Assembly: GCA_905250025.1 (NCBI GenBank)
Contig: CAJNOJ010000158.1
Location: forward strand, 182,890 to 246,889
Direction of reading: 5' to 3'
Length of the DNA stretch: 64,000 nucleotides
DNA from: Adineta ricciae
Taxonomy: Eukaryota; Rotifera; Eurotatoria; Adinetida; Adinetidae
Of the stretch, positions 20,052 through 61,472 are shown piece by piece. The position numbers and the translations under genes are program-made. Under the pieces are notes generated by a model. The model was not told where the DNA came from and ran no database searches. It saw only the letters and a program-made list of their open reading frames with translations. Positions within the stretch are counted from its first letter, which is position 1; every line of letters starts with the position of its first letter.

Positions 20052-20052
20052 N
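20052..20052. other. Single-N contig join
   Basis: Left flank belongs to the 42.9-kb-type sequence; right flank starts mid-gene in the 18.5-kb-type sequence. There is no biological continuity across this base. Confidence 0.8.
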
Positions 20053-33936: not shown

Positions 33937-36900
33937 ATGGACTACTCGAAAACTCAGCGAAGTCATACATCCAGATCCTCAACAGCAAATAATACCATCG
34001 ACTGGATCATCCAACAATGTGAAAAGGTGACATTACACCGCGATATTATCTCCTTAATAGTAAAAAGACTCAATCGTATAAAAATTATAATAAAAGAAAA
34101 GAGCGATGTTGATGGGAAGATCGTGGAACATGTTCTGGTTGAACTACACCGTACATGTACTGCTTTTAAGGAATTTTTGCAGCAAGAAGACGTTATCTAT
34201 CGGTCAAGCGGCAAGAAGCTTGATAATGCAGCAAAAAAATATATAGACACGTTCCTTAACAATATTCTTTCACGTTTGGTAAAACAGGAAGTCGATCTCA
34301 CTCAAGATCATCAAGCGAAAATTCAAATTTATAGTGAGGCTATTTCTGAACAACAGGCCATCAAACATACGACTTTGGATGAAGAAATTAGAAAACGAAT
34401 TCGAGAAGCGGGAGACAAAATGAAGATAAATGCACAAAAACGACTTCTTCATTTAACAAAGCAGTACTCACACATTACTGGGCCATATTTAACTCGGTGT
34501 TTTGAGTTGTACAGCACCATTGTAATTAATGGGCTAGATGCTCAAGTAACTGGTGAAGTGGCACAGAATTATTATGAAATTTCATCTTATCAGAGAAATA
34601 AGTTTGAATGTGCGTGGAAATCATTCAAAATGCCGCTTAAATACATGCCAATCCAACTTCGAATCGATTCCTCTACTTCGTTTGAACGAAACGCTGCTCG
34701 ACAGATGGTTATGACTGATCATCACGATTTGAGGACGTTGTTGTTCAAAGAGGCGCCAGTAGGTACTTGGCGGCAACGCCTTTTAGTAGCACCTTATATG
34801 CCTTCAATGCTCGAACGAGATCGTCTCAGTGACAACAGCAAAAGTCAATCGGCAGCTCTCGAAGATGTTTTACAACAGCATCGCTGGATTGTGATGCTGG
34901 GTGATCCTGGTAGTGGTAAAACAAGTTTCGTCCAGTGGTTGTGCACTAAATACATTCGAGCTGCTGAGAACGTTCAAGAGAATTTTGAATTTGGTCCTTT
35001 TAGAATGCCCATTGTTATTCGAATTGGTGAATTTGCTGATGCTCTGCGGAAAAAGCAGAACTTGACACTTTTCGAACATATCGGCGAGCACAAATGGTTC
35101 GGAAGATCAATGTTGTCGAGAGTTGACAGTTCAAAGATTTCCGAAAGAGAATTAGCTATGGTTTTACAAGATTATGTGAGAGAAGGACACGCTCTAATTA
35201 TTTTAGACGGTCTAGACGAAATTGTGGTTTCTCAGGAACGTATGCGACTTGTCAATCTTGTTGAAACATTTGTTGAGACATACGTACAAACACCATCTCA
35301 CAGAGCAGTTTTGGATGACTGTTTCCAAGTTGAAATCTTAGACGAACCGGGTCAGCTGGGTGGCAATCAACTTATTGTAACGAGCCGCATTGTGGGTTAT
35401 CATGCGGCTCCACTAGGTGGTCGATTTGCTCATTATATAATCGAGAAGCTAGATACTGAGCGTATAAGTGGCTTCATAGACAATTGGTTCAAGACAGTTC
35501 ATGCTGAAATGATTCGAGTAATCAGAAAAGTAGATACATCCGTTCATATATCAAACAATAAATGGGAAGGGCAAGCAAAATTTCTTAAAGTTGAATTAAG
35601 TAATCCGGATCAAATTGGTTTAAAAGAGCTGTCCTCGAATCCTTGTCTGCTTTCGTTTATATGTAGTATTGCCTTTAGTTCTAAAGAATCATCTCTGCCC
35701 TCGCAACGTATCTTACTGTACGAAAAGACGGTCAATGCAATGTTAGATTCGTGGAAGAATAAAGAAACAAATGATACAACTATTCAAGGATCTAAAGTAA
35801 TTCGAATATTTTGTGACATTGCATGGTACATACACATGAATTCAGCTGCTGGATTGATTGAAGAGAACCGGTTAAAAGAACTTTGCGTTCGATCTCTGCA
35901 AGTATATGAAGGAAAGAAGGCTCCAACAGCTGCTGATGAGCTGCGTGTCGAAAAGGATGCAGAAGATTTCGTACAGATAGTCCGTAGAGACGTTGGTGTT
36001 CTAGCGGAGCGCGGCGAATCTTTCTACGGGTTTCTTCACCTTACATTTCAAGAATACTTTGTTTGTCTCGATCTTACGAATGTCACAAAGCAAAGACATA
36101 GCATTATCTCGCCTGACGGCAAGGTACTCGATGATGTTCAGGTACTTATACATTCACTCCATCGCCATATGAATGATCCTAGGTTCCGCGTACCAATTGC
36201 TCTCGCTTTTGGACGACTAAGTTCGAAATGGAAAAAGAAGCCAGAGACGTTGGATCGCTTATGCTATGAATTTTTAAAAACTGACTCAACATCGTTCTTT
36301 CCAATCAACGCATTATTCGTAATAAACAATCTAAGTGATTTCGTCCAACGACCATCATTAGATGTTCTCATTATAGCTTTGAATCAACTATTGAAGATTG
36401 CTACTAAAGAAAAATGGGCTAATACGAATCCTGCACTTCATTCGCAGATAAAAGACGCCATACACAAGTTACCAGACAATGATATCTCTAAATGGGTGCG
36501 ATCAATACTTGCCACAAGTCACAACCAATTCAATCACTCAATACCTACTCTCTGTAGTTTGTTAGTGAGACAAAGTGAGGATTCGTTTGAAATTCGAGGA
36601 ATCGATGCATCCACTTGCGAATCGCTCATTTCATTTCTGAAATACGATGATGAGGACAATAACTTTGCCATCGATATGATTCTGATGCAAATTGCTTACA
36701 AAAATCATCGTTTACTACCAACTATTCCAACAGGTCTTAAAGCACTCTTAATACGTGAAAAAGTCGATTTCGCAACAATTCATCCATCCATTTTGGCTGT
36801 CATTATTATAATCTATGGTGGGCTGAAGCGATATGAAGATACAGTCATGTTTGATGTATCCCGAATGTACCGAGAATCGAACTTTCTAACACCGCTGCTG

Positions 36901-39900
36901 ATCGGATATTTCAGTACTAAAAATCAAACACATGATTCAAAAATAGTCTTTATAGAACGACAATGTGTAAGCTGTTTATCAACGGTTATCAACAGCGACA
37001 ATCAAATGAAAGCCGTAGATGCACTTGTCACTATGCTTTGCTTATTTGGAGTAAGCAAATTATGGACATTATCGAGTCTTTCGTCGACAACTGTTTTCTC
37101 GGCAGCACTAGTCAAGCTGAAACGTACTTCAATGATCCTCCGACAGTTTTACATGCAATCAAGCACTCAAGTAGCAGCGGATGTGCTAACAACTTCTGTG
37201 AACGACCATTTATCAAACGAATGTAATTCAAAACCTAAGAATAATCAATCGAAAGCAACAGATGTAATAGCGTATACTAAAGCAATGACTTCTGCTCTTG
37301 CACGTTTACGATCTTCTAAGAAATCCATAATTGTACTGAGCAAAAATGAAGAACATGGACTTACGTTTCCTTTACCCAAGTTATTACGAGATCAGGCGAT
37401 ATTTGAACAATTACTTCGAAAGAATATGACACTTTCATCTAACCAGTTATCATGTAAGACTCTTCCAGAATTTGCTCGTCTCTTTTGGATTTTGAACGAC
37501 GATGAGACTACTGATACTCAATATCGAATGGCTGTTGCAGCCGATACTATTCCGACTTTTTTATTAGTCCATAGCAATAGTGATCCGATTTTTGCACTGA
37601 CATTTGTTGCTGATCATCTTAGACCACTCTATTGTCATCTCTTAGAACAATATCAGATCATTCTGAACAATTCATCAACTGAATCGTCTAAAAAACAACC
37701 ATTTCTCTTATTCCAACACATCCTGATACAATCTATAATGGAACTATCAGAGTCTTCCTGTAAGCGACTCTCTCTAACATTAGCATTATGTGCTATGCTG
37801 CCTGTTCTTCGTATGAATCGTCTTGAAAACGTTGCAATAGGTCTAGCGTCTAAATTGAACACGGATAACAATTACAGAGCTATGATCGAATACACAAAAC
37901 AAAGGCCGGTAGATTCAAATACAGGTGAATATACTGATGGGTTGGGGGATTTTCCCTCACCGCCGGAGGATTACGAGATTGCGTACAATCATCAAAAGAC
38001 TATTCGTATGTGTATTGAAGAAGAAAGACAACGTCTTCAAGTTGCAATGAGACTTCTCAATGAGAAGAACAAGGAAGTAAATGCAAACTCACAATTATAT
38101 TCAGCTTCTGTTTCTTTATCCTATTTGTGTTGGTTTTCCGGTGATACGGAATTATCTCGTTTGTTTGCAGAATCTTTAAATGCTGTGGACTGCATCACCG
38201 ATCCGTTGCTTCGTTTTGATGCTTTGTGTGCATTGGGTGTCAGTCCACAAGGATGGACGACTTCTTATCGATTGAAAAATGGTCGTACTTTGATGGAAGA
38301 ACTTGAAAAGCAACTAGTAAAAATAACTTCTGATTTACATTGTACCCTTCATGCGGCTGTATTACTACGTTGCTGTTCATCTCGTTTGCAAAAGGAAATG
38401 ATTGAAAAGAGTTTACGAGATCTTCTGAAAAAAGTAACGAAAGCAGATCAAGCTGACCAATTAGTCATTAACTCTGCACTCTTCGGTATCTTACGCTCTG
38501 ATCCTCTGGTAGCGACACATTTAATCCAGTTTCTTCAAAAGTCCAAATTACCCATGTATGACATCTGCAAAGAATTATTTCAGTCGAAATCGTCCATTTT
38601 TCAGCGATTTTTCGCAAACCAGAACTTCATCAATAATACATTATTAGCATCAATGTTCATCGTCGAATTAACAAGCGAGACACATCTGATTCTCGAATGG
38701 CTCAACTCAACTGAAATACGTCCATCAATCGATCCGTCGCTCAAGACAACGGGCAATATTAATGAAAAGATCATTTTAATTCATGATAATCTTACATTAT
38801 CTCAAGCCATTTCCATCAATCGTATGATGCAGCCCATTGGTCAGTCACCAAATAAGCAAGATATTGCAAATATAAAGTGTTTAGTTTCTCAACTGCACTC
38901 TGTGTCTATGCTGGAATTGGAAGCGCGAGAAATTGCCGAAAGTTGGCTTAATCTTGAAGTAAATCCCACTCTAAACGTTTTCGCGTGGCATGCAGCTTTA
39001 TTATTATTGAAATCAAATTATTGGAGTCCTAGGGCGGTCCGTATTGCGGCTGATCTTTTACTATGTGAACAGGATAGATTTCGACAAAGAGCAGAGAGCG
39101 TTTTTCTCCTGAACAATAATGATCATATTCAAACTAGTACTCAACTGACGTTAGAGGTTATATTGCAACTGCATGAGTATGGGTCATTGTTGTGCAGGAA
39201 ATCAGCATATGCTGCATTAATGCTTTTAAGAAAGCACGAGCATATCGAAATTGATCAGCGATCTCATTTGGATGCACTTCTATATCTAGAGAAGCAACGT
39301 ATTCTACTAACCAACAACAAAACGCTCTCTAATGCTGAACAAAGACTTCCTTCACCTCTAAATGAAATATTTGATAATTGCATCAGAACAAATAATACGG
39401 AGTTCTCATTTATTAAGACAACAGTGAAACATTTCTCATCAGATGTTATTGAATATGTAGTTGAACTAATCGAAGATGGCTTCAATAAGTTCTGGAAAAA
39501 TGAGATTAGTCGACAAAACATTCAACAACGTGAACTTCGAGAAAAATTTATTGAACGCGTATTACTTTCTCTGCATTGTATTTTAAATAACTCAAAATGC
39601 GGCACATCTAAACTAGTGGAATCTCTAGCAGATCTAATAAGCAATAACTCATCAGATCTCATCAGAAAAGCTGCCATCTTCACTTTGGGCTTTAGCAAGA
39701 ATGAAGACACTCTGTCCATTATATTTACTATCATCGAATTAGTTGCTAGAGACTTGTCTGATACTTCACACGGTTATTCCGATGAGTTAATTAGTACTGC
39801 CATTCGATCTTACTGTTACAATGCATCAACTGTAGGTTATGATGTTTCTCCGAATGGCGAAATAGAAACATTGCAAAGATTACTCGATCATCCGTCTGTC

Positions 39901-40875
39901 ATTGTTTCTACTGCAACAATCTATGGTCTAGGTCGTATACTTGATGTTGATGCATTAATGAAAATACTAAGTTCGAATTGTATTCAGTGTTATAAGGCAT
40001 TTATCGCAGGAACATCCGATTCATTTTTGCACTCAGCTTCTACTCGCTGTGTGAAGGCAGCAGCAGCACTTATTGAACAACATCCTGATCTATTACCAAT
40101 ACTTATACAAGAACTCTACGAACACATTCGTTACTTTACGGATGTGATTTTCAATGATGTCAGCGTAGAATATTTATACAACTATAGTTATCCTCACTAC
40201 GCCAATGTGGCTGCTGTGGTTGCTGAATCTATGCCTGCAGCATTTTGTACTGCTGTAAATGATTTTGTAAACGGCGAAAACCTAAAGCGTTCACTTTATT
40301 ACACTAGCAAACAACATCATTTTCCTCGCCGTGCTGCTTGTCTCACCGTTCTCTCTGTGTTTGGTGAACTTACTGCTGAGCTCTGCGAGATGTTAATTCG
40401 CGCTCTTCTCGATGATCCTTCTATACAAAACACGTGCTATCGTTGCTTATCTCGTATCCAATCAGTTAAAGATGAAAAGGTCATTGTCAAAATTAAAGAA
40501 TATTTACGTTCAAAATCAATGAATGCACGATATGTATCCTGCAAATTGCTACTTATCCTTTCTAGACTACCGAATACAATATCACTAGATAAAATACAAA
40601 AACTCTTTAACGATGTTATGCGCGATCCAGAATCCGATGAAGACCTCTGGTTAATTGTCGAACAAGATGATATCTTTTGCGGAAGCATATACTACAATGC
40701 TGGCAAGTTAAAGAATGTTGTTTACGCTTTGCTTGTCGATCATTTCATAAGTAGTGGTAAAACTGGAACAACGACGATGCAAAAAGAAGCCGCTACTCAG
40801 AGTATTCTACAACAGGACTTCATTGCATCTGAAAAAGCGGCCAGACTTGCTGCTTGTTTATTCAAATCAACTTAA
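33937..40875 (+). CDS. Giant NACHT NTPase with C-terminal HEAT-like repeats (NLR-like)
   Basis: 2312 aa in one uninterrupted exon; ATG at 33937. Residues 1-300 are helical with no named domain. The NACHT has Walker A GDPGSGKT (~322), Walker B LIILDGLDE (~420), a sensor-like IVTSRIVGY, and a winged-helix end at HLTFQEYF (~700), which is the classical NACHT/HetE signature. The remaining ~1500 residues are helical repeats resembling HEAT/ARM arrays (pairs of amphipathic helices, LDHPSVIVSTATIYGLG...). STAND NTPases with this layout act as ligand-gated oligomerising switches in immunity in animals, fungi and bacteria. A 7-kb intronless frame in a genome where neighbouring genes have many introns suggests retro- or horizontal origin. 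N-terminal effector unidentified. Confidence 0.88.
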   Translation: MDYSKTQRSHTSRSSTANNTIDWIIQQCEKVTLHRDIISLIVKRLNRIKIIIKEKSDVDGKIVEHVLVELHRTCTAFKEFLQQEDVIYRSSGKKLDNAAKKYIDTFLNNILSRLVKQEVDLTQDHQAKIQIYSEAISEQQAIKHTTLDEEIRKRIREAGDKMKINAQKRLLHLTKQYSHITGPYLTRCFELYSTIVINGLDAQVTGEVAQNYYEISSYQRNKFECAWKSFKMPLKYMPIQLRIDSSTSFERNAARQMVMTDHHDLRTLLFKEAPVGTWRQRLLVAPYMPSMLERDRLSDNSKSQSAALEDVLQQHRWIVMLGDPGSGKTSFVQWLCTKYIRAAENVQENFEFGPFRMPIVIRIGEFADALRKKQNLTLFEHIGEHKWFGRSMLSRVDSSKISERELAMVLQDYVREGHALIILDGLDEIVVSQERMRLVNLVETFVETYVQTPSHRAVLDDCFQVEILDEPGQLGGNQLIVTSRIVGYHAAPLGGRFAHYIIEKLDTERISGFIDNWFKTVHAEMIRVIRKVDTSVHISNNKWEGQAKFLKVELSNPDQIGLKELSSNPCLLSFICSIAFSSKESSLPSQRILLYEKTVNAMLDSWKNKETNDTTIQGSKVIRIFCDIAWYIHMNSAAGLIEENRLKELCVRSLQVYEGKKAPTAADELRVEKDAEDFVQIVRRDVGVLAERGESFYGFLHLTFQEYFVCLDLTNVTKQRHSIISPDGKVLDDVQVLIHSLHRHMNDPRFRVPIALAFGRLSSKWKKKPETLDRLCYEFLKTDSTSFFPINALFVINNLSDFVQRPSLDVLIIALNQLLKIATKEKWANTNPALHSQIKDAIHKLPDNDISKWVRSILATSHNQFNHSIPTLCSLLVRQSEDSFEIRGIDASTCESLISFLKYDDEDNNFAIDMILMQIAYKNHRLLPTIPTGLKALLIREKVDFATIHPSILAVIIIIYGGLKRYEDTVMFDVSRMYRESNFLTPLLIGYFSTKNQTHDSKIVFIERQCVSCLSTVINSDNQMKAVDALVTMLCLFGVSKLWTLSSLSSTTVFSAALVKLKRTSMILRQFYMQSSTQVAADVLTTSVNDHLSNECNSKPKNNQSKATDVIAYTKAMTSALARLRSSKKSIIVLSKNEEHGLTFPLPKLLRDQAIFEQLLRKNMTLSSNQLSCKTLPEFARLFWILNDDETTDTQYRMAVAADTIPTFLLVHSNSDPIFALTFVADHLRPLYCHLLEQYQIILNNSSTESSKKQPFLLFQHILIQSIMELSESSCKRLSLTLALCAMLPVLRMNRLENVAIGLASKLNTDNNYRAMIEYTKQRPVDSNTGEYTDGLGDFPSPPEDYEIAYNHQKTIRMCIEEERQRLQVAMRLLNEKNKEVNANSQLYSASVSLSYLCWFSGDTELSRLFAESLNAVDCITDPLLRFDALCALGVSPQGWTTSYRLKNGRTLMEELEKQLVKITSDLHCTLHAAVLLRCCSSRLQKEMIEKSLRDLLKKVTKADQADQLVINSALFGILRSDPLVATHLIQFLQKSKLPMYDICKELFQSKSSIFQRFFANQNFINNTLLASMFIVELTSETHLILEWLNSTEIRPSIDPSLKTTGNINEKIILIHDNLTLSQAISINRMMQPIGQSPNKQDIANIKCLVSQLHSVSMLELEAREIAESWLNLEVNPTLNVFAWHAALLLLKSNYWSPRAVRIAADLLLCEQDRFRQRAESVFLLNNNDHIQTSTQLTLEVILQLHEYGSLLCRKSAYAALMLLRKHEHIEIDQRSHLDALLYLEKQRILLTNNKTLSNAEQRLPSPLNEIFDNCIRTNNTEFSFIKTTVKHFSSDVIEYVVELIEDGFNKFWKNEISRQNIQQRELREKFIERVLLSLHCILNNSKCGTSKLVESLADLISNNSSDLIRKAAIFTLGFSKNEDTLSIIFTIIELVARDLSDTSHGYSDELISTAIRSYCYNASTVGYDVSPNGEIETLQRLLDHPSVIVSTATIYGLGRILDVDALMKILSSNCIQCYKAFIAGTSDSFLHSASTRCVKAAAALIEQHPDLLPILIQELYEHIRYFTDVIFNDVSVEYLYNYSYPHYANVAAVVAESMPAAFCTAVNDFVNGENLKRSLYYTSKQHHFPRRAACLTVLSVFGELTAELCEMLIRALLDDPSIQNTCYRCLSRIQSVKDEKVIVKIKEYLRSKSMNARYVSCKLLLILSRLPNTISLDKIQKLFNDVMRDPESDEDLWLIVEQDDIFCGSIYYNAGKLKNVVYALLVDHFISSGKTGTTTMQKEAATQSILQQDFIASEKAARLAACLFKST

Positions 40876-43987: not shown

Positions 43988-45955
43988 TCAAGAAAAATGC
44001 GATGTGAAAACATTCCATTGTTCATCTTCTATTGATGTTAACGCTAATTTAATAGTCCATAATCGATCTCTCAGTTGTTTGCTTTCTCCAACACTGAAAA
44101 CTGCTCCCATCGAGAAAAGAACTTCATCTTCATCTTTGAAAATACTCTGATAAACAAGACTTGCAAAGGGAATCGATTGTTTCATTGTTGTATCAACAAG
44201 GATACAATAAATAACTGAGATCGAGTTTTCCTCGACATTTCCATCACCAGAAAATGCCAGAGCAGCTTCATAATCACTTGTTGTTGACAGAAATGTGTTT
44301 GTTGAAACAAGATGTCCTCGATTTTTTTGTAACTGATGCAGTTCACACAAGTGCATCCTCAAACCTCGATAAAGTTGCAGAACTCTTTGATTTGATGGTA
44401 ATTGTCGAAGAAATTCCATCTGCATCTGAGCAAGTTGATTGTGAAGATCATGAATAAAGTAACGTAGTTTAAAAATCCGATCAATATTTTCATTTCGAAG
44501 TGCGCGATTAATTAGTCGATAAAGAAAACAATCAACACTGTACCATTTGATTGCATCTCGAGGATCGTAAGTGGCATCGAAATGATCAATTTTCTTCAAT
44601 TCGACAGTATCTTCAGCATAAGCTTCTCGACAAACGTCAAGAAGTTCATTTCGAGCAAAATCATTTTGATCTAAACGTAGCATCATATCGATGAACAATT
44701 GAGACGCTAAAAACGATCCATTTTCTAATGTGAGATCATGAAAGAAGTTTTTCTTTGATTGAATGTTTTGTAATGTAAAGAATGATCGTTGATTGAGAAT
44801 ATCTTTCGTTCGCAAATACCATGGATTCATAATTGAAACAAATTGTTCGTCATTTTCATCAATTAACGTCAAATCAATATACCAAAATTCGTCGAGAGTA
44901 TTTTTTGTCACTCGTTCAACACGAAACAACGAACGAAACGAGAACAAAATTTCCAACTCGTGATCTGCAACACTAAACTGTGATATATCGCAATAAGCAC
45001 CCTGGATATGTTGAGGAATATCGATGGAAAATAGGACTTGTCCGATTTGGTCTGTTCGATGTGGAGACAAGATGCTTGTGAAGTCAAAAGCTGTGTCTCT
45101 CGACAACGTTGTTGACCAAAAGGCTGTTAATCCAATAAGACCACCGATATTGGCTTGAATTTCTAGGATTTCTTCTAAATGCATCTGCTGACCGCGATAG
45201 ATACGTGCAATTGAATGGATTTCATGACGATGGTTTTGTATATAGTTTTCTAGATCAGATATGACATAACGCATAGCGAAAATATGATTGATATCTTCAG
45301 ATCTGAGTGTACGATTCAACAAAATATAGAAGAAGGATTCTCTTGTATACCATTTAATGATTTCATTTGAGTTATAAGTTTGTACGAATTCTGAGCATGA
45401 TCGTTGAATGATTTCAGTTTGTTTTGTATGAAATGCTTTGACATTGTTTAACATTTCTTTTTGAGCGACATCAGTTTGTTTTAAACACGACAGAATATAG
45501 TAGAAATATTGATACCAAAGATATTTAGCAGTGTGCTTGCTAAGATCGTATGATGTTCGTTCAACAGGCCAAGAATCGAATGTTATGTAAAGCCGATGTC
45601 GGTTACGTATTGTGAATGACAGATGATCAACAAGTGATTGAGTATTCGAAAAATATTCAACATTTTCATACGAGAATCGTCGTGTGCCAACAATAATTGT
45701 GCGAGTAATTTGAGGAAATATTGGACGATAATTATCGCATACAAGAGAAGAAATAAGATCCGACAAAACTAAAGTTATTTGTAGATTTGCATTTAAAACA
45801 AGATAATCGAAAAGATCATCGATGTCGATAAACCAGTGTTTGATGTAATAAGATAATCGAGGATTTGATCGAAAATCTTGTTGAGTTAGATCAAAACTGA
45901 TAAAACACTGGCCAAACGAATCAGAATTTTGAATACGTGTGTAAAATCGATACAT
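43988..45955 (-). CDS. Tandem-domain ADP-ribosyltransferase, intact copy
   Basis: 655 aa, single exon; ATG at 45955. Residues ~1-150 are an alpha-beta domain (CFISFDLTQ, LVLSDLISSLV, RTIIVGTRR) of the type also seen alone at 17-18.7 kb. ART-1 (~200-400) has YRGQQM, FWSTTLSRDTA and HELEILFSF. ART-2 (~440-655) has YRGLRM, FLSTTSDYEAA and DEDEVLFS. Both keep Arg, Ser and E-x-E, so both could be active mono-ADP-ribosyltransferases. There is no signal peptide. The conserved N-terminal domain may sense or recruit the target. The damaged homologue lies at 29195-31163. Confidence 0.88.
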   Translation of the reverse strand: MYRFYTRIQNSDSFGQCFISFDLTQQDFRSNPRLSYYIKHWFIDIDDLFDYLVLNANLQITLVLSDLISSLVCDNYRPIFPQITRTIIVGTRRFSYENVEYFSNTQSLVDHLSFTIRNRHRLYITFDSWPVERTSYDLSKHTAKYLWYQYFYYILSCLKQTDVAQKEMLNNVKAFHTKQTEIIQRSCSEFVQTYNSNEIIKWYTRESFFYILLNRTLRSEDINHIFAMRYVISDLENYIQNHRHEIHSIARIYRGQQMHLEEILEIQANIGGLIGLTAFWSTTLSRDTAFDFTSILSPHRTDQIGQVLFSIDIPQHIQGAYCDISQFSVADHELEILFSFRSLFRVERVTKNTLDEFWYIDLTLIDENDEQFVSIMNPWYLRTKDILNQRSFFTLQNIQSKKNFFHDLTLENGSFLASQLFIDMMLRLDQNDFARNELLDVCREAYAEDTVELKKIDHFDATYDPRDAIKWYSVDCFLYRLINRALRNENIDRIFKLRYFIHDLHNQLAQMQMEFLRQLPSNQRVLQLYRGLRMHLCELHQLQKNRGHLVSTNTFLSTTSDYEAALAFSGDGNVEENSISVIYCILVDTTMKQSIPFASLVYQSIFKDEDEVLFSMGAVFSVGESKQLRDRLWTIKLALTSIEDEQWNVFTSHFS

Positions 45956-46031
45956 ATTTGATGCAAAAATAAACCGTCATTTTCGCCTCCATTTTATGTA
46001 AACACGTGGAGAGAATAGGCAAATATTATGT

Positions 46032-46840: not shown

Positions 46841-48476
46841 TTAATGACAAGCTGCTCCTAGCGAAACTCGAATACTGTTCATTTCTGTGTCAATGAAAAC
46901 CAGATCATCTTTTCCATCTTGATTTAAATCAATAACTTTCAGCGATTGGAAACATTTACTATTGTGAATTCTATCCATATGAAATGACAAATAGTTTTTA
47001 TCAAAAAATCCAATTTTGGTTCCGAGAAAGATTGTTACTGTTCCATTGCAATGCAACAGAGCTAAATCATCAATCTGATCGTTGTTGAAATTGATTCGAC
47101 TAATCGATGTTGGAAAATCGCTCGTTAAGTAAATTTGCTGGGTAAAATTTCCTTTCAGGTNAAACATTTACTATTGTTAATTCTATCCATATGAAATGAC
47201 AAATAGTTTTTATCAAAAAATCCAATTTTGGTTCCGAGAAAGATTGTTACTGTTCCATTGCAATGCAACAGAGCTATATCGTCAATCTGATCGTTGTTGA
47301 AATTGATTCGACTAATTGATGTTGGAAAATCGCTCGTTAAGTAAATTTGCTGCGTAAAATTTCCTTTGAGGTACGCAAGTAAGACTTGTAATGTGCTCGA
47401 TTGAGATGAAATCGTTGCTAAATCTTCGCGATCATCGTAATTAAACTTTCCTTTAATTAATATTGACGGATCCTCGTAAATATCGTACCTTGATAGAGGT
47501 TTTACTTGTAATGATCTATCAATCGAAACTGTGTAAAGATCATTATTACGACTACAAAAACTTATTTCATTTTGTTTTCCATTATTGTCAAAATCACCAC
47601 CAACTATTGATAAAATACCTTGCTTAGCAACTTTTGAATATACTCGTATCCCACCAAAATTAGAACCATTACCATAATTGACGAAAAGTATCACGTTATT
47701 TAGTGCATGTATTCGATTTGTCTGACGACTTACAATCAAATCAATAAATCCATCATCATTTACATCATGGGCTAGAATTGCCTGTGGCTTATCTGTGGAA
47801 TTATAAGCAGAGAGTTCGATCGGAGATGAAAATATTGTATCACTTCCTGTAAGACCAAAGAAAAAAATGATTTTCTTCGCTTCATATAATGTAACCGCTA
47901 AGAAAAAGGAAAAATGTCCTCGTTATGCGAATTTCTGTTTCTATTAATTACCTAAATCTAAACATGTATCATGGTTAAAGTCAGCGGCGATGACCTGTTG
48001 CGGCGATGTTTCATCTCCAGTTCGATAAATTAACTGTGTTTCAAACGTCCCATCACCTTTACCTAACAAAACGCTCAAACTATGAGAATCAGCATTGGTT
48101 ACCACCAAATCTATCATCGAATCTTGATTAAAATCACCCGTCGCAATTGATGTTGGACGTTGACCTACTCGATAAGTTTTATCTTGATATTTGAAAGTCA
48201 TATAACAATTATCTAAGCATAATTCAAACTAATTATTAGTATCGGACCCTTTCTCCATTCGGCATACTTGCTGTTGTTGCTGTTGGTGATGATGATGTTT
48301 GCAATAGCGTATCATTGACATCAATCGTCGTCGTTGTTGTTATGATTGCTGTAGTTGATTTGTGTTGTTTCTTATCTCGATTGACCGCAACAATAATAGA
48401 AAGTAGAACGATAGCAGTGAGAGACAAAGAAATCAAGCACATGATCAATACTCGGTGTTGATGTCTTTGTTTCGAT
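46841..48476 (-). CDS. TM segment and FG-GAP ectodomain: 3' exons of the multi-module gene
   Basis: Exons on the minus strand: 48476-48268 (basic stretch, then TM helix ISLSLTAIVLLSIIVAV and a Thr-rich stalk), 48212-47952 and 47897-46841, with introns of 55 and 54 bp. FG-GAP loops: GDFNQDSMIDLVV, ADFNHDTCLD, HDVNDDGFIDLIV, GDFDNNGKQ, FNNDQIDDIA and DLNQDGKDDL. The 48476 exon has no ATG at its start. It is entered in phase 2 from the 38-bp exon 48565-48528, which links it to the membrane modules upstream. The N at 47161 joins two overlapping contigs (46950-47160 and 47162-47372), adding a false 212 bp and breaking the frame. Confidence 0.75.
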
Positions 48477-48527
48477 CTTCAATATGAATATAAACAGACG
48501 AGTTCTATCAAATAGAATATCTCTTAC

Positions 48528-49989
48528 ACATTTCCTCGTTGTTTATCAACGCTATCTCCTTTTATCTAGAAAAATATTCTCAGAAAAAAAGTGAAGTCTC
48601 TATCTATCAATCTTACCGTTGTATCTGCTTCTACATCGATCTCATCTTGATTTATCGGTGGAATATCGGACATTGATGGTACACTTATCGATAATTGTTT
48701 TTCTTCGTTCTTTCGACGTTTAACAATTGTACGCACCGCTAAATCCATATAGAAAACAAAGAAATACAAACCTTTTGTCAATCCACCAAAAAGGCCGAGT
48801 AATGTTGTTATAACATACATTAAATTACGATCTTGTACGTATGAATATTCGCATAAATAAGGACTGCACTCATTAAAATATTGTTCAAATGAAATTTTTT
48901 CTTTCCATCTAATAACGAAAAGTTGATTAAGAAGTGTTTCAATCGTGGCATTCATCGGTGATAATGGCGAAGGATGTAATGCATTAACTGGATATGGTTT
49001 TGCATAGAAGATTGATGCACGCATCATGTCAATGCACGTTTGACTATAGAGACAAGCTAAAGTCGATTGAAGTATTGAATCTAAAAGTATGCAACCAACA
49101 CGAAATCCAGCAATACTTTGTCTTGATGAAGTACTCGACGATCGAAACGGAAAGCCGATCAATTCTCCACAAGTTGACTGTAATCCACATGAGCAGTTTT
49201 CGTCTTCATAGGTTTGTGCTGTAGTTAGAATATGTATGGGTTGATCAAGAAAGCCGTTAAACACTTTTATTGGATATCTCGAAATAAATTTCCAATTTGA
49301 TGAAAATAAACTTGTCAGCTGATTTGCTTGATTAGTTAATTGTAGCAATTTCAATGTTTCGGCGAATTGATTAGCTGTTGAAAGTCTGAATTGTTCAATA
49401 ATGATTGGTACGCGTTTCGAAAATTCTTTTTCCGATACAATATTTCCACTGATAAAATCTGTTTGATGAAAAATCTGTAATGATGTTTTTAACGTAGTTT
49501 CTGAAAGTAAGCATAATTGAGACAAAATTTGAAATAATAAACGAATTACTGAACGAAAATCAGTTCCGTATGCCTCATTCGTAAATAAACCTTCGGAATC
49601 GTCAAAAGTCATAAGCCATTTTAGTGAGACAAAATCACTTGCACACACAGAATGATATTTCGGTTGAAGTTCAACTATGAATTTATGATATTTTATAGCT
49701 GTTTGAGTGCAGGGACAGTAAAGTGTGTGTTCGTATTGAGAATACAAGTGTTTATATTTGCTAATCGATGGTGATTTAACAATAATTTGTTTTGTTTCTT
49801 GTTCTAATGATGTATAAATGATGAGAATAGAAAATGCTGTTATTAAGAAAATGAGATATATCCGTGTTTTGTATCGATCTCGGCGTAGAACATTTTGGTC
49901 ATTGGATAGTGGAATACGAATAAAAAGATTTAATTTCATAACATACTCTTTGCTCATCATAGTAAATGAAGAGAGTTTTTCATACAATC
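48528..49989 (-). CDS. Two-TM 'CPC' membrane module 3 plus linker exon
   Basis: Exon 49989-48617 (about 457 codons) and linker exon 48565-48528, intron 48566-48616 (51 bp). TM1 is LIFLITAFSILIIYTSL. The ectodomain starts with a CPC motif (LYCPCTQTAIKY), has CSCG..C and GFRVGCILLDS..STL.CLY..C blocks and FNECSP..C, and ends at TM2 (VITTLLGLFGGLTKGLYFFVFY). The family is very common in bdelloids in my recollection; topology resembles DEG/ENaC-type channels but I cannot assign it. The first codon is completed from the previous module (phase 1), and the apparent start in this frame is TTG, not ATG. The TAG at 48566-48568 is the splice acceptor and not a stop codon. Confidence 0.75.
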
Positions 49990-50243
49990 CTAGAAAATAT
50001 TCAAAGGTGCACCAAAGTTGAGCAGATTCTCAACATTTTAGACAATGTAAAACGGTAAGGGTTCAAAAGAATCTCTGCTGTCCAACAGAGACAGCTTACA
50101 GTGTAGATGAATACACTCGACCTGTGATGTAATCGTTAAAATAAATGCGACAACTTCGGACTTTATCCGAAAGTTATGTGTACTTCAAAAAGTGTATCAG
50201 ATGGCACACAAAAATCTGAGAATTTTTCTGTAAGTTAGTAGTA

Positions 50244-50404
50244 TTACAGTCGATCGGGCTCATCTTCGAACTCGTCTGCGGCATTGACAATATACTGCTA
50301 TGTACTAAATTTCACGACAATTGGATCATTCTTTCGGGAGTTATCGGATTAACAGTGAGACGGACCTATTCTATAGTATACTCACTTTTTGAGTACACAA
50401 AAAC
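50244..50404. repeat. Direct repeat, left copy
   Basis: Shares with 51010-51177 the series CATCTTCGAACTCG, ATGCTATGTA-like, AGTTATCGGATTAAC and CTCACTTTTTGAGTACACAAAAA. The two copies bracket about 600 bp. The outer ends contain a small palindrome around ACTTTTTGAGT. Possibly LTR-like or terminal repeats of a non-autonomous element. Confidence 0.6.
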
Positions 50405-50930
50405 CAGCACGCAAAGTTTGACTACCTTATCTGCCATAGAATCACTTGGATAATAACTCACCGACGCCAACCTTATCCATCTACCCTTCCATATGTCCAC
50501 AAAAGTAGCACGGAGGGTTTGGCGTACAGTCTTGACACGAAATCGCGTGGGTGAAATTTCACTCAGACACCACCCATGTCGTCAACACCTATCGTCCTCA
50601 CTAGTATGCGAACAGTCGTTTGAGGCTTTCTAGACATATGGAACCAGCATGCAAAGTTTCGCGGCGTTTTCAGTTATAGGACCACTTGGGTGAGATTGCA
50701 CCCACACCATCCTTACCCACCCTCATCACTGGTCCACTAACTCTCTTTCGATGTTTCCCTACATTCACAGAAGCACTATGAAAGATTTCGTGACTTTTTC
50801 TGATGCAAAATCGCTGGGGTGAAATTCCACCCAGGCCTACCCCTTCACTGGCCAATCAGCATTTTTCTGGATCCAAAGAAACAGTACAGAAGCTTTCGTG
50901 GCCATGGCTGATACAAAAAGTGAATGCAAA
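50405..50930. repeat. Degenerate ~120-bp tandem array
   Basis: Four to five divergent units start near 50405, 50500, 50640, 50765 and 50880. Each contains an AGCAC/AGCATG..AAAGTTT/AAGATTTCG start, a GTTTTCAGTTATAGG-like centre and a GGGTGAAATT-C-CACCCA end. Degeneracy suggests an old array carried inside the element bounded by the direct repeats. Confidence 0.5.
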
Positions 50931-51009
50931 TCGAATAAGCGGATAAACAGGCAAATCTTCAAGTTTTTCATATAGGAATTAGAGAAAACTTTATCAAAAG
51001 TCAGCAAGA

Positions 51010-51177
51010 GTACAGCCGATCAGGCTCATCTTCGAACTCGACCGAGATATTTACAAGATAATGCTATGTATCAAATTTCATGAAAATTGGATTATTCATT
51101 CAGGAGTTATCGGATTAACGGCCGGACGGACATACTGACCGATTCTATAGTGTACTCACTTTTTGAGTACACAAAAA
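51010..51177. repeat. Direct repeat, right copy
   Basis: Second copy of the 50244-50404 repeat. Slightly longer, with GGACGGACATACTGACC-type sequence between the shared blocks. Confidence 0.6.
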
Positions 51178-51266
51178 GATGATTTAAACTGTGACAATCT
51201 CTCACGCTCACAATAACACGTAGTGCCAGTGGTGAAAAAAGTCCCTTGTAAGATAATCTGACTTAC

Positions 51267-52595
51267 GTGTTCGTATAGATTCGAGTTCATTGATATTCAT
51301 TTGTCGATGTTGAAATATAAAAGTTTGCATCTTTACTAATATGAGAATTATTATTGGTAAAACTAATCGAAGAGCAATTTGAAGGCCACCCATTACACCA
51401 ATAAGATTTGTGACAATATAAATAGTTTGAAATTTTGTTTTATAAGTATATTGACATGATAATGGTCGGCATTGATTAAAATAAGATTGATATGAACTTC
51501 CACTAAGCCAAGATCGAATGAATAACTTATTTGTTAAATTTTCTATTGGACTAAATGTTTCATTCTCTGATAAATCTGTTAAAATATTATAGTCATCTAA
51601 TGATATGTTTGATAGAATAAATTTTTTGATCTCAGACAGACACGTGTGATTATAAAGACATTCTAGTGTTGATATCAAAACTGCTTGTAATGGAAACCAT
51701 GTTTGATACATTCCTGGTATAATAATAGAGTCAAACCTTTTGTCTTTAATGATTGTTTGTTTATGACATAGATCATAGGAGAGTAGAGAACACGAATAAC
51801 CAAAGGGATCTTCTGATGAAGCATCACAAGTCGGTCTTTCTTTCGAATTATAACGAAAATACAGTAAACGAAGGACGTAATTTCCGTTTGAATCTCTGTA
51901 ATCGTATAAGAACCACGAGTTTGTTGGTGTAACAAATTGATTGATTTCAAAATTCGATTTTAATAAACCAATGATACGTTGGTATGATTCAGGAATTGTT
52001 TGTTGGAATTGCTTCATAATTAAATCCGTTTGCATATTAAATACTTTGGAATGATACAATTCCTTACTCACAAATTTCGTTCGATAGAATAGCTCAAGAG
52101 ATTCATTAATCGTTTGATTAGCCATAGTGCATAATGTTGATAAAAGTTGAAAATAGAATTGAGATTGATAACGATAATCCTGTGTGAAAATCGGCGATTG
52201 AGAGAATCGCATATTTATCCATTCTGATGAAAGAAATTTACTTGAACATATCCCGTAATATTGAGGAGTAAGCGACAAAATCGATTGATAATCGATAGCG
52301 GTATGTTGACAGGGACAATGAAGCGTTAAGAGATGCTTTTCATAAAGCTCTTCAAAGAGTTCTCTTGATGGATGTTTAACGGTTACTTGTCGAGTTTCTG
52401 ATTGTATCGATGTAAAACTTATTAGAATTAGTACGGCTACGAGCAAAACAAATAAATAAGTCCATGTTGTGTAACGCTCAATCCGACGAATCGTTTCTTT
52501 ACTTGTCGGAGGAACTTTCTCGAATAAATTCAACTCCACTAACTGTTTTCTGGTCAATTGAAGTGATTTTGTTAGGAACTGCTTCAAAGAAGACT
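51267..52595 (-). CDS. Two-TM 'CPC' membrane module 2
   Basis: One exon of 1329 bp entered in phase 1 at 52595 (A|AG = Lys) and left in phase 1 at 51267. TM1 is YLFVLLVAVLILISFTSI. The ectodomain has CPCQHTAIDY, an SSEDPFGYSCSLL block, QAVLISTLECLYNHTC and FNQCRPLSCQYTY; TM2 is IVTNLIGVMGGLQIALRLVLPIIILILV. There is no ATG at its 5' end (the frame opens at a TTG codon), which supports its being an internal exon. Same family as modules 1 and 3 but clearly divergent, so the duplication is old. Confidence 0.75.
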
Positions 52596-52648
52596 CTAAA
52601 AGAAAACATCGAAGTTTACATAAAAGTCTTCATACAAAAGATATTTAC

Positions 52649-53888
52649 TCGGCTTAGTCTCAGATTCATTCTGAAACGTGTAAGAGTGTTTTCGTTGTGA
52701 AAGAAATCTCCATATCATTGGCCATACGGTTTTTATAATGATAGGTACGATTATTTTTAATACTGTTGATAATCCTCCGGCTAAACCAATCACTGTGGTT
52801 ATAATAATCAACACACTATGTCGATTGGTAGCATATTGGCATAAATTCGGTTTACAATTGTTGAAATATCGATCGTAGAATGTTTCATTGGACCACTGAA
52901 TAACCAACATTTGACTGAGTAGGTTTTCAATTGTGAAATTTGAGCTTGATGAATCATTCAAGTTCTTGTATTTATTTACTGATCCTGTCAAGTTATTAAC
53001 AAATTCTTGATCGTATAATATTTCCAATGTAGATTTCAGGAGTGCACTGAACATGTAACAACCTGTTTGAAAACCGGGAACAGTTTTATTATTTAACATT
53101 GCTGAACCGAGACAATGGGTCGATGTTGAACTCGAACACGTACAGTTCGATCCATCTGGAAATGTGTAGTGTATTCCATCGTAAGGAACACCGTCTTCGT
53201 CTTCGAGTAAACTAAAAAGTTTATAGTGATTTCTTGGCAAAACACTTGTTAATGAAGCTCCGGTCATGAGTAAACTCTGAGCTGTAATATTTTGAATAAA
53301 ACTTAATGTTCTCAAAAATGGCTTTGGTGTCAGAATGATAAAATCATTGATTAAAGAAGATATTTGAGAATGAAATAGATCTGATGGAACTAAATTTGAT
53401 TGAATCAATTCAGTGTGCAGGAACTCTTGCAGATTGTATTCAACTGTTTTCTGTGTTAATTCGCAAAGTGTGCGAAGAGTTTGAAATTGAAAAGTAGCAA
53501 TTCGATAAACATCAGTCAAAATCGACTTGTTCGACGTTTGCTCGTAGAAATCGTATAAATTACGAATAAAATCATCAGAAATGAACTGACTTTGACAGAA
53601 TTCATGATAAATCGGTTGAATACGAAGGAATGTTTCGTATCTTATCGAGATTGTCGTGCATGGACATTGTAATGAACGAGTTTCTGATAGAAAGAGATAT
53701 CTTTTGAATGAAGGGGATTTGATCACAACTGTTCGTGTGGAACTTGTGACCGAATAATAAAAAATCAGAATGGTTAACGAAAGAAGAAAAAGAAACAGAT
53801 ACAATCGAGTTGATTGCCGTTCGTTTTCAACCACTTCTTCATCTTCGATTCCACTTTGAAAAAGATTTAGTTGAAAGAAATACGATTT
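52649..53888 (-). CDS. Two-TM 'CPC' membrane module 1 (5' side lost in N gap)
   Basis: Exon ends at 52649 (CCG A|GTAAAT). The 53-bp intron 52596-52648 leads in frame to module 2, and the TAG at 52596-52598 is its acceptor. TM1 is RLYLFLFLLSLTILIFYY; then CPCTTISIRY, CTCSSSTSTHC, PGFQTGCYMFSALLKSTLEIL, FNNCKPNLCQY, and TM2 IITTVIGLAGGLSTVLKIIVPIIIKTV. A duplicate of the start lies at 23086-23217, where a splice acceptor precedes it, so further exons lie upstream. The protein's true N-terminus is not visible. Confidence 0.72.
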
Positions 53889-53940
53889 NNNNNNNNNNNN
53901 NNNNNNNNNNNNNNNNNNNNNNNNNNNNNNNNNNNNNNNN
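53889..53940. other. 52-N assembly gap
   Basis: Both flanks occur in the same order at 23086-23208 and from 24698, there separated by about 1.5 kb. The gap therefore probably hides about 1.5 kb and not 52 bp. Confidence 0.75.
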
Positions 53941-54205: not shown

Positions 54206-55009
54206 ATTCGATGAGAGGCCATCATTATTAATTTACTAATATATATTAAAAAATAATTCTGATTCATGACTTTCCTTTGTTTTTCCTAAGCGTATCAAAC
54301 ACGCACAATAAATTCAGCATTCGATTACTCTTCCAAGCAAAGAACAAAAATCCGTATTTTGGTCGACGCGCCTTTTCTTCTTTCGAACTCTAGATCGCGT
54401 TTGGACTAGCAATGTAAGTTCTAATGCGAACCACAAAAACGTAGAAGATATTTTCTTATGATCAAGAAACGATACGTGATACGAGAATTTCATATGGCGA
54501 TTGATAATTGATAACATCGCCAAATCGTGAGCAACGTTAAGTATAAGTTCATTTGATAGATTGTTAATATTCGTTTTTAAACGGAAGTTTTGTAATCTCT
54601 TTTTAGATAAGTACAGACTTCAGAACTATTATGAATTTCTGTGGAGCGAAGTCTTTTCCATTAAGTATAATGGTTCTTCGTTTCTTCCCGTTGATTTGAA
54701 AAGAGTTGCTAATCTGGCAGACCGACTAATTAATACTGATTATTATTATCGCACACGCTGTATAGTAAATTGTCACGAGATTTCTTCTGCTGTCATGGAA
54801 TTCGTTGTGTGACAATCTGACCGTTGTAGTATTGAGTTCTATTCTTCGAAGAGATGTTACAGAGCGTAACTGTTAAGTTAAACTTCTTCTGTCTCCATGT
54901 CAGTTATACCTTCTAGTCTGAAAGAGACTGCGCTCATCTACAAATACTTGAGCGGATGTTTAATTAGACAAGTACATCTTCTTTATTTTATCTTTTAGCA
55001 AAAGGAGCG
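54206..55009. other. Intergenic upstream of the 7TM gene
   Basis: About 800 bp. A plus-strand frame to 54812 (DKYRLQNYYEFLWSEVF...) is preceded by an acceptor-like CTCTTTTTAG at about 54605 and could be a terminal exon, but no upstream exon was found. TTTATCTTTTAG just before the 7TM ATG is a plausible trans-splice acceptor. Confidence 0.3.
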
Positions 55010-55933
55010 ATGGCAAAGAGCTCCATGTCAATCTCTGTCGATGCGATATTGAACATAATTTCAACTACTGCAGAGTCGATGAGCTTATTGATCTCATGTT
55101 ATTTTACTATTATCATTACATACCGTATTACTCAAATCAAAGTTCGTTCGCGACGAGCGAAAATCGAAGTACCAGTGATCCTTTCATTAAATACACTTTG
55201 TATACTCGTCGTGGAAAGTGCTTTGCAAATACTTGATGTGAATTGGCCAACGATACAGCGGGATTTCTATGAGTTCATTCGTGAAGAGAATTCATTCTTT
55301 TGTCAATTCCGTTCCTATCTATATTACTCAGCAGTCAGTGCTCTCTATTGGAGTTGTGCACTTCAAGCATTCTTTCGATTCGTTCGTATTGTCCATCCCG
55401 AATGCGTACGGATGCATCAAGCGAAAATCTATTACAATATTTTCATACCCGGTCAGATTCTGTTTGCGTTTGGCAGCGTTCTGCCTTATCTTCTGATTTT
55501 CAAAGGTATTCAACTGATACCTAATGAAAATTATTGTACAGCATTGATCAGCGAATTTAACTCATTGTTATATTTGATTTTCATTTTGTTTGCTTTGCCT
55601 CTTTTGGTTATGTTTTTATGTTATATTTGTATTATTTTCAAAATACGTCGAACATCAACATCGAAGTTGTATTATCGAAAACGAAGTCGACGAGAATATT
55701 TCATTATTCAACGAATAATGACAGTAATGCTGATTCTGAGTGTGGCATCGCTTCCTTCGATTGTTGATTTGATCATTTATGCACCACATGGTCGACTTGA
55801 TTCGCGTATTTATCGGATTGAATGGATTTCAGCTTCATTAAATGCACTGTTTCTCGGCCTTTGTCAACCGTTTGTGAATCCGCAATTACGAAAATTGCTG
55901 AAAAGTAGAAAAACAGTCAGAAGTAAAATATAA
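55010..55933 (+). CDS. Rhodopsin-like 7TM receptor (bdelloid orphan type)
   Basis: 307 aa, single exon, ATG at 55010. Seven hydrophobic helices are evident. TM3 begins after a Cys (SFFCQFRSYLYY) and ends in FFRFVRIV, where class A receptors have DRY: only the Arg is kept. ICL3 is short and basic (RKRSRREY), and TM7 ends LGLCQPFVNPQLRK, an NPxxY variant. A TM4-5 loop Cys (NENYC) can pair with the TM3 Cys. A G-protein-coupled sensory or peptide receptor is likely. The ligand is unknown. The degenerate DRY suggests a divergent lineage-specific family. Confidence 0.82.
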   Translation: MAKSSMSISVDAILNIISTTAESMSLLISCYFTIIITYRITQIKVRSRRAKIEVPVILSLNTLCILVVESALQILDVNWPTIQRDFYEFIREENSFFCQFRSYLYYSAVSALYWSCALQAFFRFVRIVHPECVRMHQAKIYYNIFIPGQILFAFGSVLPYLLIFKGIQLIPNENYCTALISEFNSLLYLIFILFALPLLVMFLCYICIIFKIRRTSTSKLYYRKRSRREYFIIQRIMTVMLILSVASLPSIVDLIIYAPHGRLDSRIYRIEWISASLNALFLGLCQPFVNPQLRKLLKSRKTVRSKI

Positions 55934-59633: not shown

Positions 59634-61472
59634 TCACTCGCAGTCGTAGAGTGACCCGAAAATCCAGTTGTTCAACTGATCTAAGTTTAAGTTGGTGAAG
59701 GAGTTGTAGAATGGGTTGTTGAATGGGTGGTGGAATGAGTTGTTGAGTGCGTTGTTGAGTGAGTGCTGGAATGAGTTGTTGAGTGCGTTGTTGAATGAGT
59801 GCTGGAATGGGTAGTGGAATGAGTTGTTGAATGAGTGCTGGAATGAGTTGTTGAGTGCGTTGTTGAATGAGTGCTGGAATGGGTAGTGGAATGAGTTGTT
59901 GAATGAGTGCTGGAATGGGTGCTGGAATGAGTTGTTGAGTGTGTTGTTGAATGAGTGGTGGAATGAGTTGTTGGGTGCGTTGTTGAATGAGTTGTTGAGT
60001 GCGTTGTTGAATGAGTGGTGGAATGGGTAGTGGAATGAGTTGTTGAGTGTGTTGTTGAGTGTGTTGTTGAATGGGTAGTGGAATGAGTTGTTGAGTGTGT
60101 TGTTGAATGGGTAGTGGAATGAGTTGTTGAATGAGTTGTTGAATGAGTGCTGGAATGAGTGCTGGAATGGGTGCTGGAATGGGTGCTGGAATGGGTGCTG
60201 GAATGAGTTGTTGAGTGTGTTGTTGAACGAGTGCTGGAATGAGTGGTGGAATGGGTAGTGGAACGAGTTGTTGAGTGTGTTGTTGAACGAGTGCTGGAAT
60301 GAGTGGTGGAATGGGTAGTGGAACGAGTTGTTGAGTGTGTTGTTGAACGAGTGCTGGAATGAGTTGTTGAGTGTGTTGTTGTATGAATCTTTGTGGTGGT
60401 GGTTCGTGTTCTTCTCCGATATAAATAATCTATTAGACAAAAACAAGAGATTCCTATCAATGAAGGCATTCTGCGTGTGAGCTTAAGATAAAAGAACTGA
60501 ACAGAAATGAATGAAAAGTAGGGATGGTCTTCAATTGTGGAGGCAACTTACAATTCTTGTTGTAGTATTGCTTCTCTGGATAACGAGGACGCGAATTATA
60601 GTTTTCATATTCTTCAGAATCGTCATCGTTCAGACAGTTTTCTTCAAAATCTGAGTGATATCTAGTGCGAACTGCTTTCTCAAAAGCATGTTTTCCATGA
60701 TCATATCTCGGCATATTGCGAAGAAAACCTAAATCAAATAAGCATATATTTTTGCAGGTTACCGAAAACAATGCAAATGAGATACGAACGTGGATCGTTA
60801 CGAAGAAAATAGCGAATATCGAAAGAAGGTAACATTGGTACGCCATTGCTCAATAAAGTTGCGTATCCGTATACTAGCAATCGAGCTACTGGAATAAGAT
60901 CTCCATAGAAATTAACCAATGGAGGTATTAAATAAGCTATAATTGAGAATAACAACCAACAAACTTCATTTTCTAGAAGATCTTACCTCCAGTTGGTCCA
61001 TAGATCATCGTTTGTCGGGTAAACCGTTCAACATAAATGTGCATATAAGGTGAATATTTTATCCAAGAACTGGATAATTCTAAATATGGAAATCAACGTT
61101 TCATTTTCAACCATACGGATAATCCGTACCATATCTACGACGATCAAATCGTTTGTATGGAAAACGTGTGGGCTTTTTCGCGTATCCACTTTCATCATCA
61201 CACGATTCACGAACATAAAGGTTCAAATAGCCTCGATCGTCGTCCGAATCCTGAAAGAAAACACAATATTATACGGAATGAAACATTTGTTTATCGATAT
61301 TTCCTACATCGTATGATCGACGAATTCTTGAATCGTGATGTTGATCATTAGCTTCTAATAGAATGAATATAATATGTTTACATAGAACTGAAATCAGTAT
61401 CTTACCGTCTGTGCTTGCTTGATTTATATTGATTACGCATATGAGTATCGAAATGAGAAAATAGTTTCTCAT
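59634..61472 (-). CDS. Secreted protein with Asn/Phe/His-rich 12-bp-encoded repeat domain
   Basis: Seven exons with consistent phases: 61472-61406, 61351-61308, 61250-61130, 61079-60987, 60936-60763, 60728-60552 and 60481-59634, about 507 aa. Signal peptide MRNYFLISILICVINI; acidic then basic spacer; a Tyr-rich region (YSPYMHIYVERF, YLIPPLVNFYGD, RPRYPEKQYYNK); then ~230 residues built of four-residue blocks (NNSF, NNTL, HYPF, HHSF, QHSF); C-terminus NWIFGSLYDCE. One intron is either 34 bp (60729-60762) or 73 bp (60729-60801), both in phase. Likely a structural or adhesive extracellular protein; function unknown. A second ATG (61493) would extend the signal peptide by seven residues. Confidence 0.65.
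59690..60385. repeat. 12-bp minisatellite (~58 units) inside a coding exon
   Basis: Plus-strand units are variants of GTTGTTGAATGA, GTGCTGGAATGA and GTAGTGGAATGG. A 60-bp higher-order unit (five 12-mers) is repeated about two and a half times at 60205-60380. No minus-strand frame contains a stop, because the unit length is a multiple of three; splicing phase selects the Asn/Phe/His reading. Confidence 0.9.

Follow-up and report, generated by a model that had tools for sequence, protein, structure and literature searches.

Three homologous two-transmembrane modules and a membrane-anchored FG-GAP region in a single predicted gene of the bdelloid rotifer Adineta ricciae

Homology to annotated proteins shows that a predicted spliced gene of the bdelloid rotifer Adineta ricciae joins three homologous modules with two transmembrane segments (TMs) each, a linker, a seventh TM and a region of FG-GAP repeats, and comparison of its relatives by sequence shows that the module recurs almost always in threes. 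The gene lies on the minus strand of a 64,000-nucleotide stretch of the 130-Mb genome (contig C158:182890-246889), which we refer to as the window and in whose coordinates all positions are given. The first-pass annotation of this DNA had proposed a single gene with these parts in this order, and the same order is found in annotated proteins, P0016 and others.

The window modules appear in the open reading frame listing as three minus-strand frames of 473-487 aa each. As had been claimed, the frames of modules 1 and 3 end at TAG triplets (52596 and 48566), and TTG is the first codon of the module 2 and module 3 frames when ATG, GTG and TTG are all allowed as starts. Exon 1 (52649..53888) carries module 1, that is TM1, a Cys-rich ectodomain and TM2, and has lost its 5′ end at an N gap; it is followed by intron 1 (52596..52648; 53 bp, phase 1), whose junction aligns in 12 homologues with small gaps nearby, and by exon 2 (51267..52595) with module 2, of which a 97% partial copy on contig C289 retains the donor site. 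Intron 2 (49990..51266; 1,277 bp, phase 1) contains a direct repeat of about 165 bp in two copies (50245-50403 and 51011-51177) and leads to exon 3 (48617..49989) with module 3. Beyond intron 3 (48566..48616; 51 bp, phase 0), exon 4 (48528..48565) encodes a linker that would lie on the cytosolic side; intron 4 (48477..48527; 51 bp, phase 2) separates it from exon 5 (48268..48476), which encodes a Thr/Ser-rich stalk and the seventh TM, homologous to a TM at residues 1357-1375 of P0016. The FG-GAP region starts in exon 6 (47952..48212; PF13517, E 3.8e-14) behind intron 5 (48213..48267; 55 bp, phase 1), and its remainder and the stop codon occupy exon 7 (46841..47897), which follows intron 6 (47898..47951; 54 bp, phase 1) and spans an assembly join at 47161. 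All six introns have GT-AG ends, and both the lengths and ends previously assigned to the five short ones and the in-phase 1,277-bp intron proposed between modules 2 and 3 (GT-AG at 51266-49990) are correct. With phases of 1, 1, 0, 2, 1 and 1, the spliced frame runs for 1,728 aa without a stop up to the N at 47161; the earlier statement that exon lengths sum correctly does not hold for the last exon as assembled, in which the frame breaks at 47161.

The single N at 47161 sits within an apparent assembly artefact (46949..47373), in which a flank of about 212 bp is duplicated and the frame is broken; the near-duplicate flanks are 47162-47373 and 46949-47160 (212 bp). Because the A. steineri homologue P0016 carries this stretch as a single copy, the duplication most likely marks an assembly join, with a break in frame that is not biological. 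At the other end of the gene a gap of 52 Ns (53889-53940) adjoins exon 1, and the start codon is probably in or near this gap.

In-phase splicing, taken alone, is weak evidence that these exons form one gene, since it is possible by chance: five of the 30 GT-AG pairs of 45-80 bp at the junction of modules 1 and 2 keep the frame, as do 3 of 33 at the exon 6-7 junction and, again at 45-80 bp, 1 of 17 at the exon 5-6 junction, this one being intron 5 itself. Each window module is moreover an open frame of its own, as would be expected if three or four separate genes stood in tandem, with a TAG closing each or with trans-splicing as the only link between them. It is homology that decides the matter, and it supports the one-gene model. 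The spliced window frame aligns end to end (1,624-1,709 positions, 39.6-45.4% identity) with 12 annotated proteins of A. steineri and A. ricciae, which are 1,714-1,794 aa long and comprise three modules and an FG-GAP region. The exon 6-7 junction (DTCLDL/AVTLYE) is gapless in all 12, and alignment of the linkers elsewhere is looser; P0048 is without the stretch at junction 2, and P0053 is without the seventh TM as annotated. P0016 (1,784 aa, PF13517) was annotated independently with the same order of parts, P0041 is a chain of 1,757 aa with three modules and FG-GAP, and the architecture recurs in annotated relatives from A. steineri, A. ricciae, A. vaga and Rotaria sordida (partial). Ranked by module identity, A. 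vaga P0049 comes first (66, 55 and 58% for modules 1, 2 and 3) and likewise contains three modules and PF13517; no entry for the window gene is among the 163 proteins returned, whose best module identities are 55-66%. Within the A. ricciae genome, the nearest complete paralogue by module 2 (C720, 48%) has its three modules in a single uninterrupted frame (1,330 aa) closely followed by FG-GAP sequence, and intronless three-module frames are also present on C422 (two), C345 and C747; module 1 of the C259 paralogue is 53% identical to window module 1. Separate genes were rejected on the strength of the single C720 frame and of the relatives annotated as one chain, and the TTG starts of the module 2 and 3 frames also stand against them; we see next to no chance that this reading is correct.

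A search of bdelloid proteomes for repeated modules together with FG-GAP, suggested by the first-pass annotation, matches dozens of unnamed public proteins. The accompanying remark that no described protein has this architecture is borne out in the literature searched, where none was found among the matches listed, but it needs the qualification that dozens are already present, unnamed, in public proteomes.

A module profile was run over the 163 proteins returned, and in a set of 83 relatives (P0001-P0083), obtained with queries that were themselves three-module proteins, 77 have three modules, some with one of them incomplete. Two modules are found in five (P0013, P0026, P0032, P0033 and P0063, of which P0026 and P0032 are marked partial), and the remaining one, P0068, gives four broken module pieces. 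One query admitted proteins of up to 1.75 x 1,784 aa, so that longer arrays could have surfaced, and P0079, P0081 and P0082, at 2,244-2,828 aa, still have three modules. In a search for short proteins (n = 54) there are 39 with one module match, 12 with two and 3 with three; many of the short single-module matches are unnamed metagenome frames or are marked partial, and because some, for example P0124, are annotated as whole, free single modules may exist.

Three modules are likewise present at 17 of 19 fetched loci, for most of which a few kb of flank were read: C158, C259, C720, C678, C736, C227 twice, C422 twice, C345, C747, C199, C336 twice, C402, C710 and C407. Module 3 is interrupted by a gap in one of the C422 copies, and C710 has its third module divided between two frames. 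The exceptions are C289, a scaffold fragment with a 2.2-kb piece beside a single N, and a second gene on C407 that is cut by the fetched stretch; this gene has one module inside the stretch, another outside and no further module in the 3 kb downstream, and may be a gene with two modules. The nearly fixed number of three does not figure in the first-pass annotation. Two short extra module pieces, left uncounted, lie behind the triple of locus L022, one of them 90% identical to the third module of C345, and locus L019 has FG-GAP sequence at its start, 4.7 kb before the triple, also uncounted.

Across the A. ricciae genome there are at least 240 merged module matches on 96 contigs, six of them shorter than 900 bp; about 100 candidates were scored per search, such that 240 is a lower bound and cluster sizes are undercounts. 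At a gap of 2 kb we count 140 clusters (69 single, 42 double, 29 triple and none larger), and at 3.5 kb there is one cluster of five, which is the two C407 genes taken together. Because the genome-wide cluster counts are undercounts, it is the fetched loci and the proteins that carry the argument for three modules.

Each module consists of TM1, a Cys-rich ectodomain of about 330 aa and TM2, and the window modules are 27-32% identical to one another. Hydropathy gives two TMs per module, with a threshold that missed TM2 of window module 3. The ectodomain has 12 recurrent Cys columns, and because 11 of these are common to at least half of 50 proteins at every module position, it looks like a conserved disulphide-rich unit. 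The TM2 consensus is TxLIGLxGGLxxxLxxxxP, with Gly at position 401 in 40 of 48 modules and at position 402 in 45 of 48. In the P0016 group (n = 25; the window and 24 annotated proteins, of which P0051 and P0058 are without a listed FG-GAP domain), TM2 position 404 is Ser in 21 of 25 for module 1, Asn in 20 of 25 for module 2 and Thr in 20 of 25 for module 3, and position 408 is Arg, Lys or His in at least 17, at least 18 and at least 22 of 25, respectively. A basic residue is present at position 408 in at least 10, at least 22 and at least 20 of the other 25 proteins for modules 1, 2 and 3; window module 3 has Tyr at this position.

Modelling of one module, another check put forward in the first-pass annotation, was carried out on module 3. 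The AlphaFold (AF2) model has a pLDDT of 84.2, the modelled protein has helices containing the TMs at residues 31-61 and 389-434, and a strand runs directly into TM2. Foldseek finds no known fold for this model at E≤0.001; the best PDB match is PAC, at an E of only 2.9, with 65 and 338 as the first and last aligned chain residues, which we take to extend from TM1 to TM2. ASIC5 and ASIC1 are also listed, and against ASIC chains the rmsd is about 10 Å. No P2X or CD36-type chain is among the matches listed in a looser Foldseek look, an absence that excludes nothing. At the sequence level there is no convincing Pfam, NCBIfam or PDB match for the module, and Pfam scans give no channel signature.

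Known channels whose subunits combine two TMs with a large ectodomain and function in groups of three include ASIC/ENaC, PAC and P2X. PAC and ASIC are both described as built from three two-TM subunits whose ectodomains are rich in beta structure, a likeness that does not extend to their sequences (PMC8809534). DEG/ENaC/ASIC proteins have two TMs around a large Cys-rich ectodomain and both ends inside; the window modules have the two TMs and the Cys-rich ectodomain, and the inside position of their ends is a prediction. In Pfam at E≤1, window modules 1-3 match neither the ASC profile (PF00858) nor the TMEM206 profile (PF15122), and no P2X family is among their matches; ASC is also absent among the best 25 of 37 Pfam families matched by 48 modules, and hhalign of the module against four ASC proteins ending before TM2 gives nothing convincing. 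A search of the A. ricciae genome with PF15122 gives no match, and the control is equally silent. The genome also holds ordinary ASC genes (92 matches, exon by exon). In the proton-activated chloride channel TMEM206/PAC/ASOR there is one module per chain and three chains assemble, whereas the window gene has three in one; compared with trimeric two-TM channels as a whole, it has three two-TM units per chain, and their packing and a pore in the window protein are putative.

Three pieces of the window tail match PF13517 (E 3.8e-14, 3e-9 and 8.5e-8), and the tail fits the FG-GAP repeat profile with about seven repeats. Six FG-GAP motifs precede the join at 47161 (exons 6-7) and a seventh (DLNQDGKDDL) follows it, with a spacing of 46-57 residues and Ca-site-like motifs; P0016 has six by the same kind of pattern and a gap where a seventh would fit. 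The region is likely a seven-bladed propeller. It shares FG-GAP repeats with the integrin alpha-type propellers (PF13517, PF01839) but differs in being C-terminal, behind the seventh TM and three modules, and Pfam finds no integrin stalk domain in the window pieces scanned. We infer an N-in topology with both module ends cytosolic and the ectodomains outside; because the seventh TM is an odd one, the FG-GAP region would also be outside if both module ends are inside.

At six further A. ricciae loci (C720, C259, C678, C227 twice and, first part only, C736), module 3 is followed by FG-GAP sequence. Counting the window gene, seven of the 17 three-module loci have a tail, and the seven are mutual closest relatives by module identity; tblastn of the short fetched flanks finds no FG-GAP behind the other ten. 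Annotated relatives also have other partner pieces (P0081 carries PARG_cat_microb, P0020 an ART fragment), and because relatives carry such different partners the triple behaves, judged by its sequence context, as a self-contained unit.

A quick-search tree covers the 63 modules of 21 proteins, three from each; in it, window modules 1, 2 and 3 fall in position-specific eight-row clades with SH-aLRT 100, which argues for an old triple in the FG-GAP subfamily whose positions evolve separately. Module position is also clustered in the tree as a whole (8 changes vs 30.1 in shuffles), yet there are not three clean clades. The intronless triples of C345 and C747 differ with a dN/dS of 0.27 overall (0.23, 0.30 and 0.29 by module), and this whole frame is therefore under purifying selection. 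For window exon 2 and the C289 piece dN/dS is 0.69 on 20 differences, which are too few for a verdict, with 4.1% difference in the compared part of intron 2 and 1.8% in exon 2. The use of C289 as an allele comparison was set aside, as it is only the 2.2-kb piece beside a single N noted above.

We propose, with confidence and doubt in about equal measure, that the protein is a single-chain pseudo-trimeric two-TM channel or receptor with an extracellular propeller. The three modules would pack around a pseudo-threefold axis as in ASIC/ENaC, PAC and P2X, but pre-joined on one chain, and the three TM2 helices would line or gate a central pore, each with GLxGGL followed by a small polar and often then a basic residue. 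In a threefold bundle a ring of small polar residues and a ring of basic ones would suit a pore, the basic ring favouring anions. A pseudo-trimer of channel-like subunits is suggested by the module count and the topology, and the fold evidence points weakly the same way. We are least sure of the last step, in which the seventh TM would hang the FG-GAP propeller beside the triple head and the propeller would bind a ligand or partner there and open, close or place the core.

The same gene could encode a receptor without a pore, a seven-TM adhesion or recognition protein whose ectodomains and FG-GAP propeller bind surfaces or particles and whose three modules are an inherited accident of ancient triplication. 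FG-GAP propellers are best known from integrin-type adhesion, which fits such a receptor, as do the size and divergence of the family (at least 240 merged module matches) and the lack of a channel signature in Pfam scans of the module. A 2013 A. vaga paper (PMC3846280) lists FG-GAP among expanded multigene families and assigns such families likely roles in defence and chemosensory perception, as well as in extracellular signalling and communication between cells, again in keeping with a receptor. A helix serving only as an anchor would, however, hardly be expected to have the conserved glycines and frequent basic residue of TM2. The copy number of free tandem repeats is often unstable, whereas here three are kept in branches that share just 24-30% identity and differ in their partner pieces, and we regard a receptor without a pore as rather unlikely. 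The fixed number of three argues for threefold packing and not for ion flow as such, and the fold match is too weak to discriminate; a covalent trimer acting as a fusogen, as a surface enzyme or in the handling of lipids or sterols would also account for it. Two TMs per unit, a strand running directly into TM2 and a Gly-rich TM2 nonetheless fit the channel pattern, and a threefold machine of this other kind seems to us quite improbable.

Should the single-chain channel reading hold, bdelloids would carry a large family of natural single-chain trimeric channels, probably anion-preferring, each read from one frame, kept at three subunits, varied by module position in TM2 (rings of Ser, Asn or Thr and of basic residues) and fitted with plug-in end domains (the FG-GAP propeller, or the PARG-like and ART-like pieces of annotated relatives), a broader conclusion that we advance tentatively and rate at somewhat below an even chance. 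The four-repeat voltage-gated Na/Ca channels are channel subunits joined in one chain, with each repeat free to diverge; they differ in being fourfold, with six TMs per repeat and without a large ectodomain, and no homology is implied. If the three modules do form one pore, a trimeric channel would here have been concatenated naturally, as happened in the four-repeat sodium and calcium channels, whose repeats thereby became separately tunable. We know of no such concatenation for threefold channels so far, and a natural concatemer of this kind would to our knowledge be without precedent, the threefold equivalent of the four-repeat sodium channel. With at least 240 module matches in a single animal genome and no Pfam family found for the module, these genes would constitute a large and hitherto unrecognised family of surface proteins in animals that tolerate desiccation and have long been asexual, and even without a channel, a repeat number held at three over deep divergence calls for a structural reason.

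The 1,277-bp intron of the main gene, which lies between modules 2 and 3 (49990-51266), carries a direct repeat of about 165 bp in two copies, at 50245-50403 and 51011-51177. In cross matches to C289, another A. ricciae contig, the repeat scores 82-86%, and it is perhaps a small mobile element that has lengthened the intron. Part of module 2, together with its intron, recurs at 97% on the same contig (7778-9999; genome G000, stretch L009), adjoining a single N; the scaffold stretch around this piece is otherwise without match to the window, and the piece may be the other haplotype's contig, misplaced.

Single Ns also mark the midpoints of two tandem near-duplicates within the window, one at 46949-47373 (N at 47161, in the last exon of the main gene, where the frame breaks) and the other at 27757-28199 (N at 27978). 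Both are probably scaffold joins at which the flank has been duplicated. Further single Ns occur at 20052, 23085 and 43301.

Immediately downstream of the main gene, on the same (minus) strand, is a 662-aa frame (43988-45976) whose two halves both resemble ADP-ribosyltransferases, the first matching PF03496 (E 1.7e-7) and the second PF01129 (E 1.4e-9). Upstream and on the opposite (plus) strand there is a rhodopsin-type 7TM receptor frame (54968-55933; PF00001, E 1.1e-8). Elsewhere on the plus strand, a 1,508-aa frame (9852-14378) with FG-GAP_3 matches at about 11844-12032 and 12762-12950 is a predicted second FG-GAP gene of the window, and a 2,338-aa frame runs uninterrupted across 33859-40875. 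A long tandem array of 12-bp and 72-bp periods at 59690-60386 keeps several frames open.

Other N-terminal pieces are annotated on three-module cores, the three tandem two-TM modules: in the A. vaga protein P0081 a microbial-type PARG domain is placed far upstream, and the A. steineri protein P0020 is given an N-terminal ART fragment. These could be either real fusions or gene-model joins.
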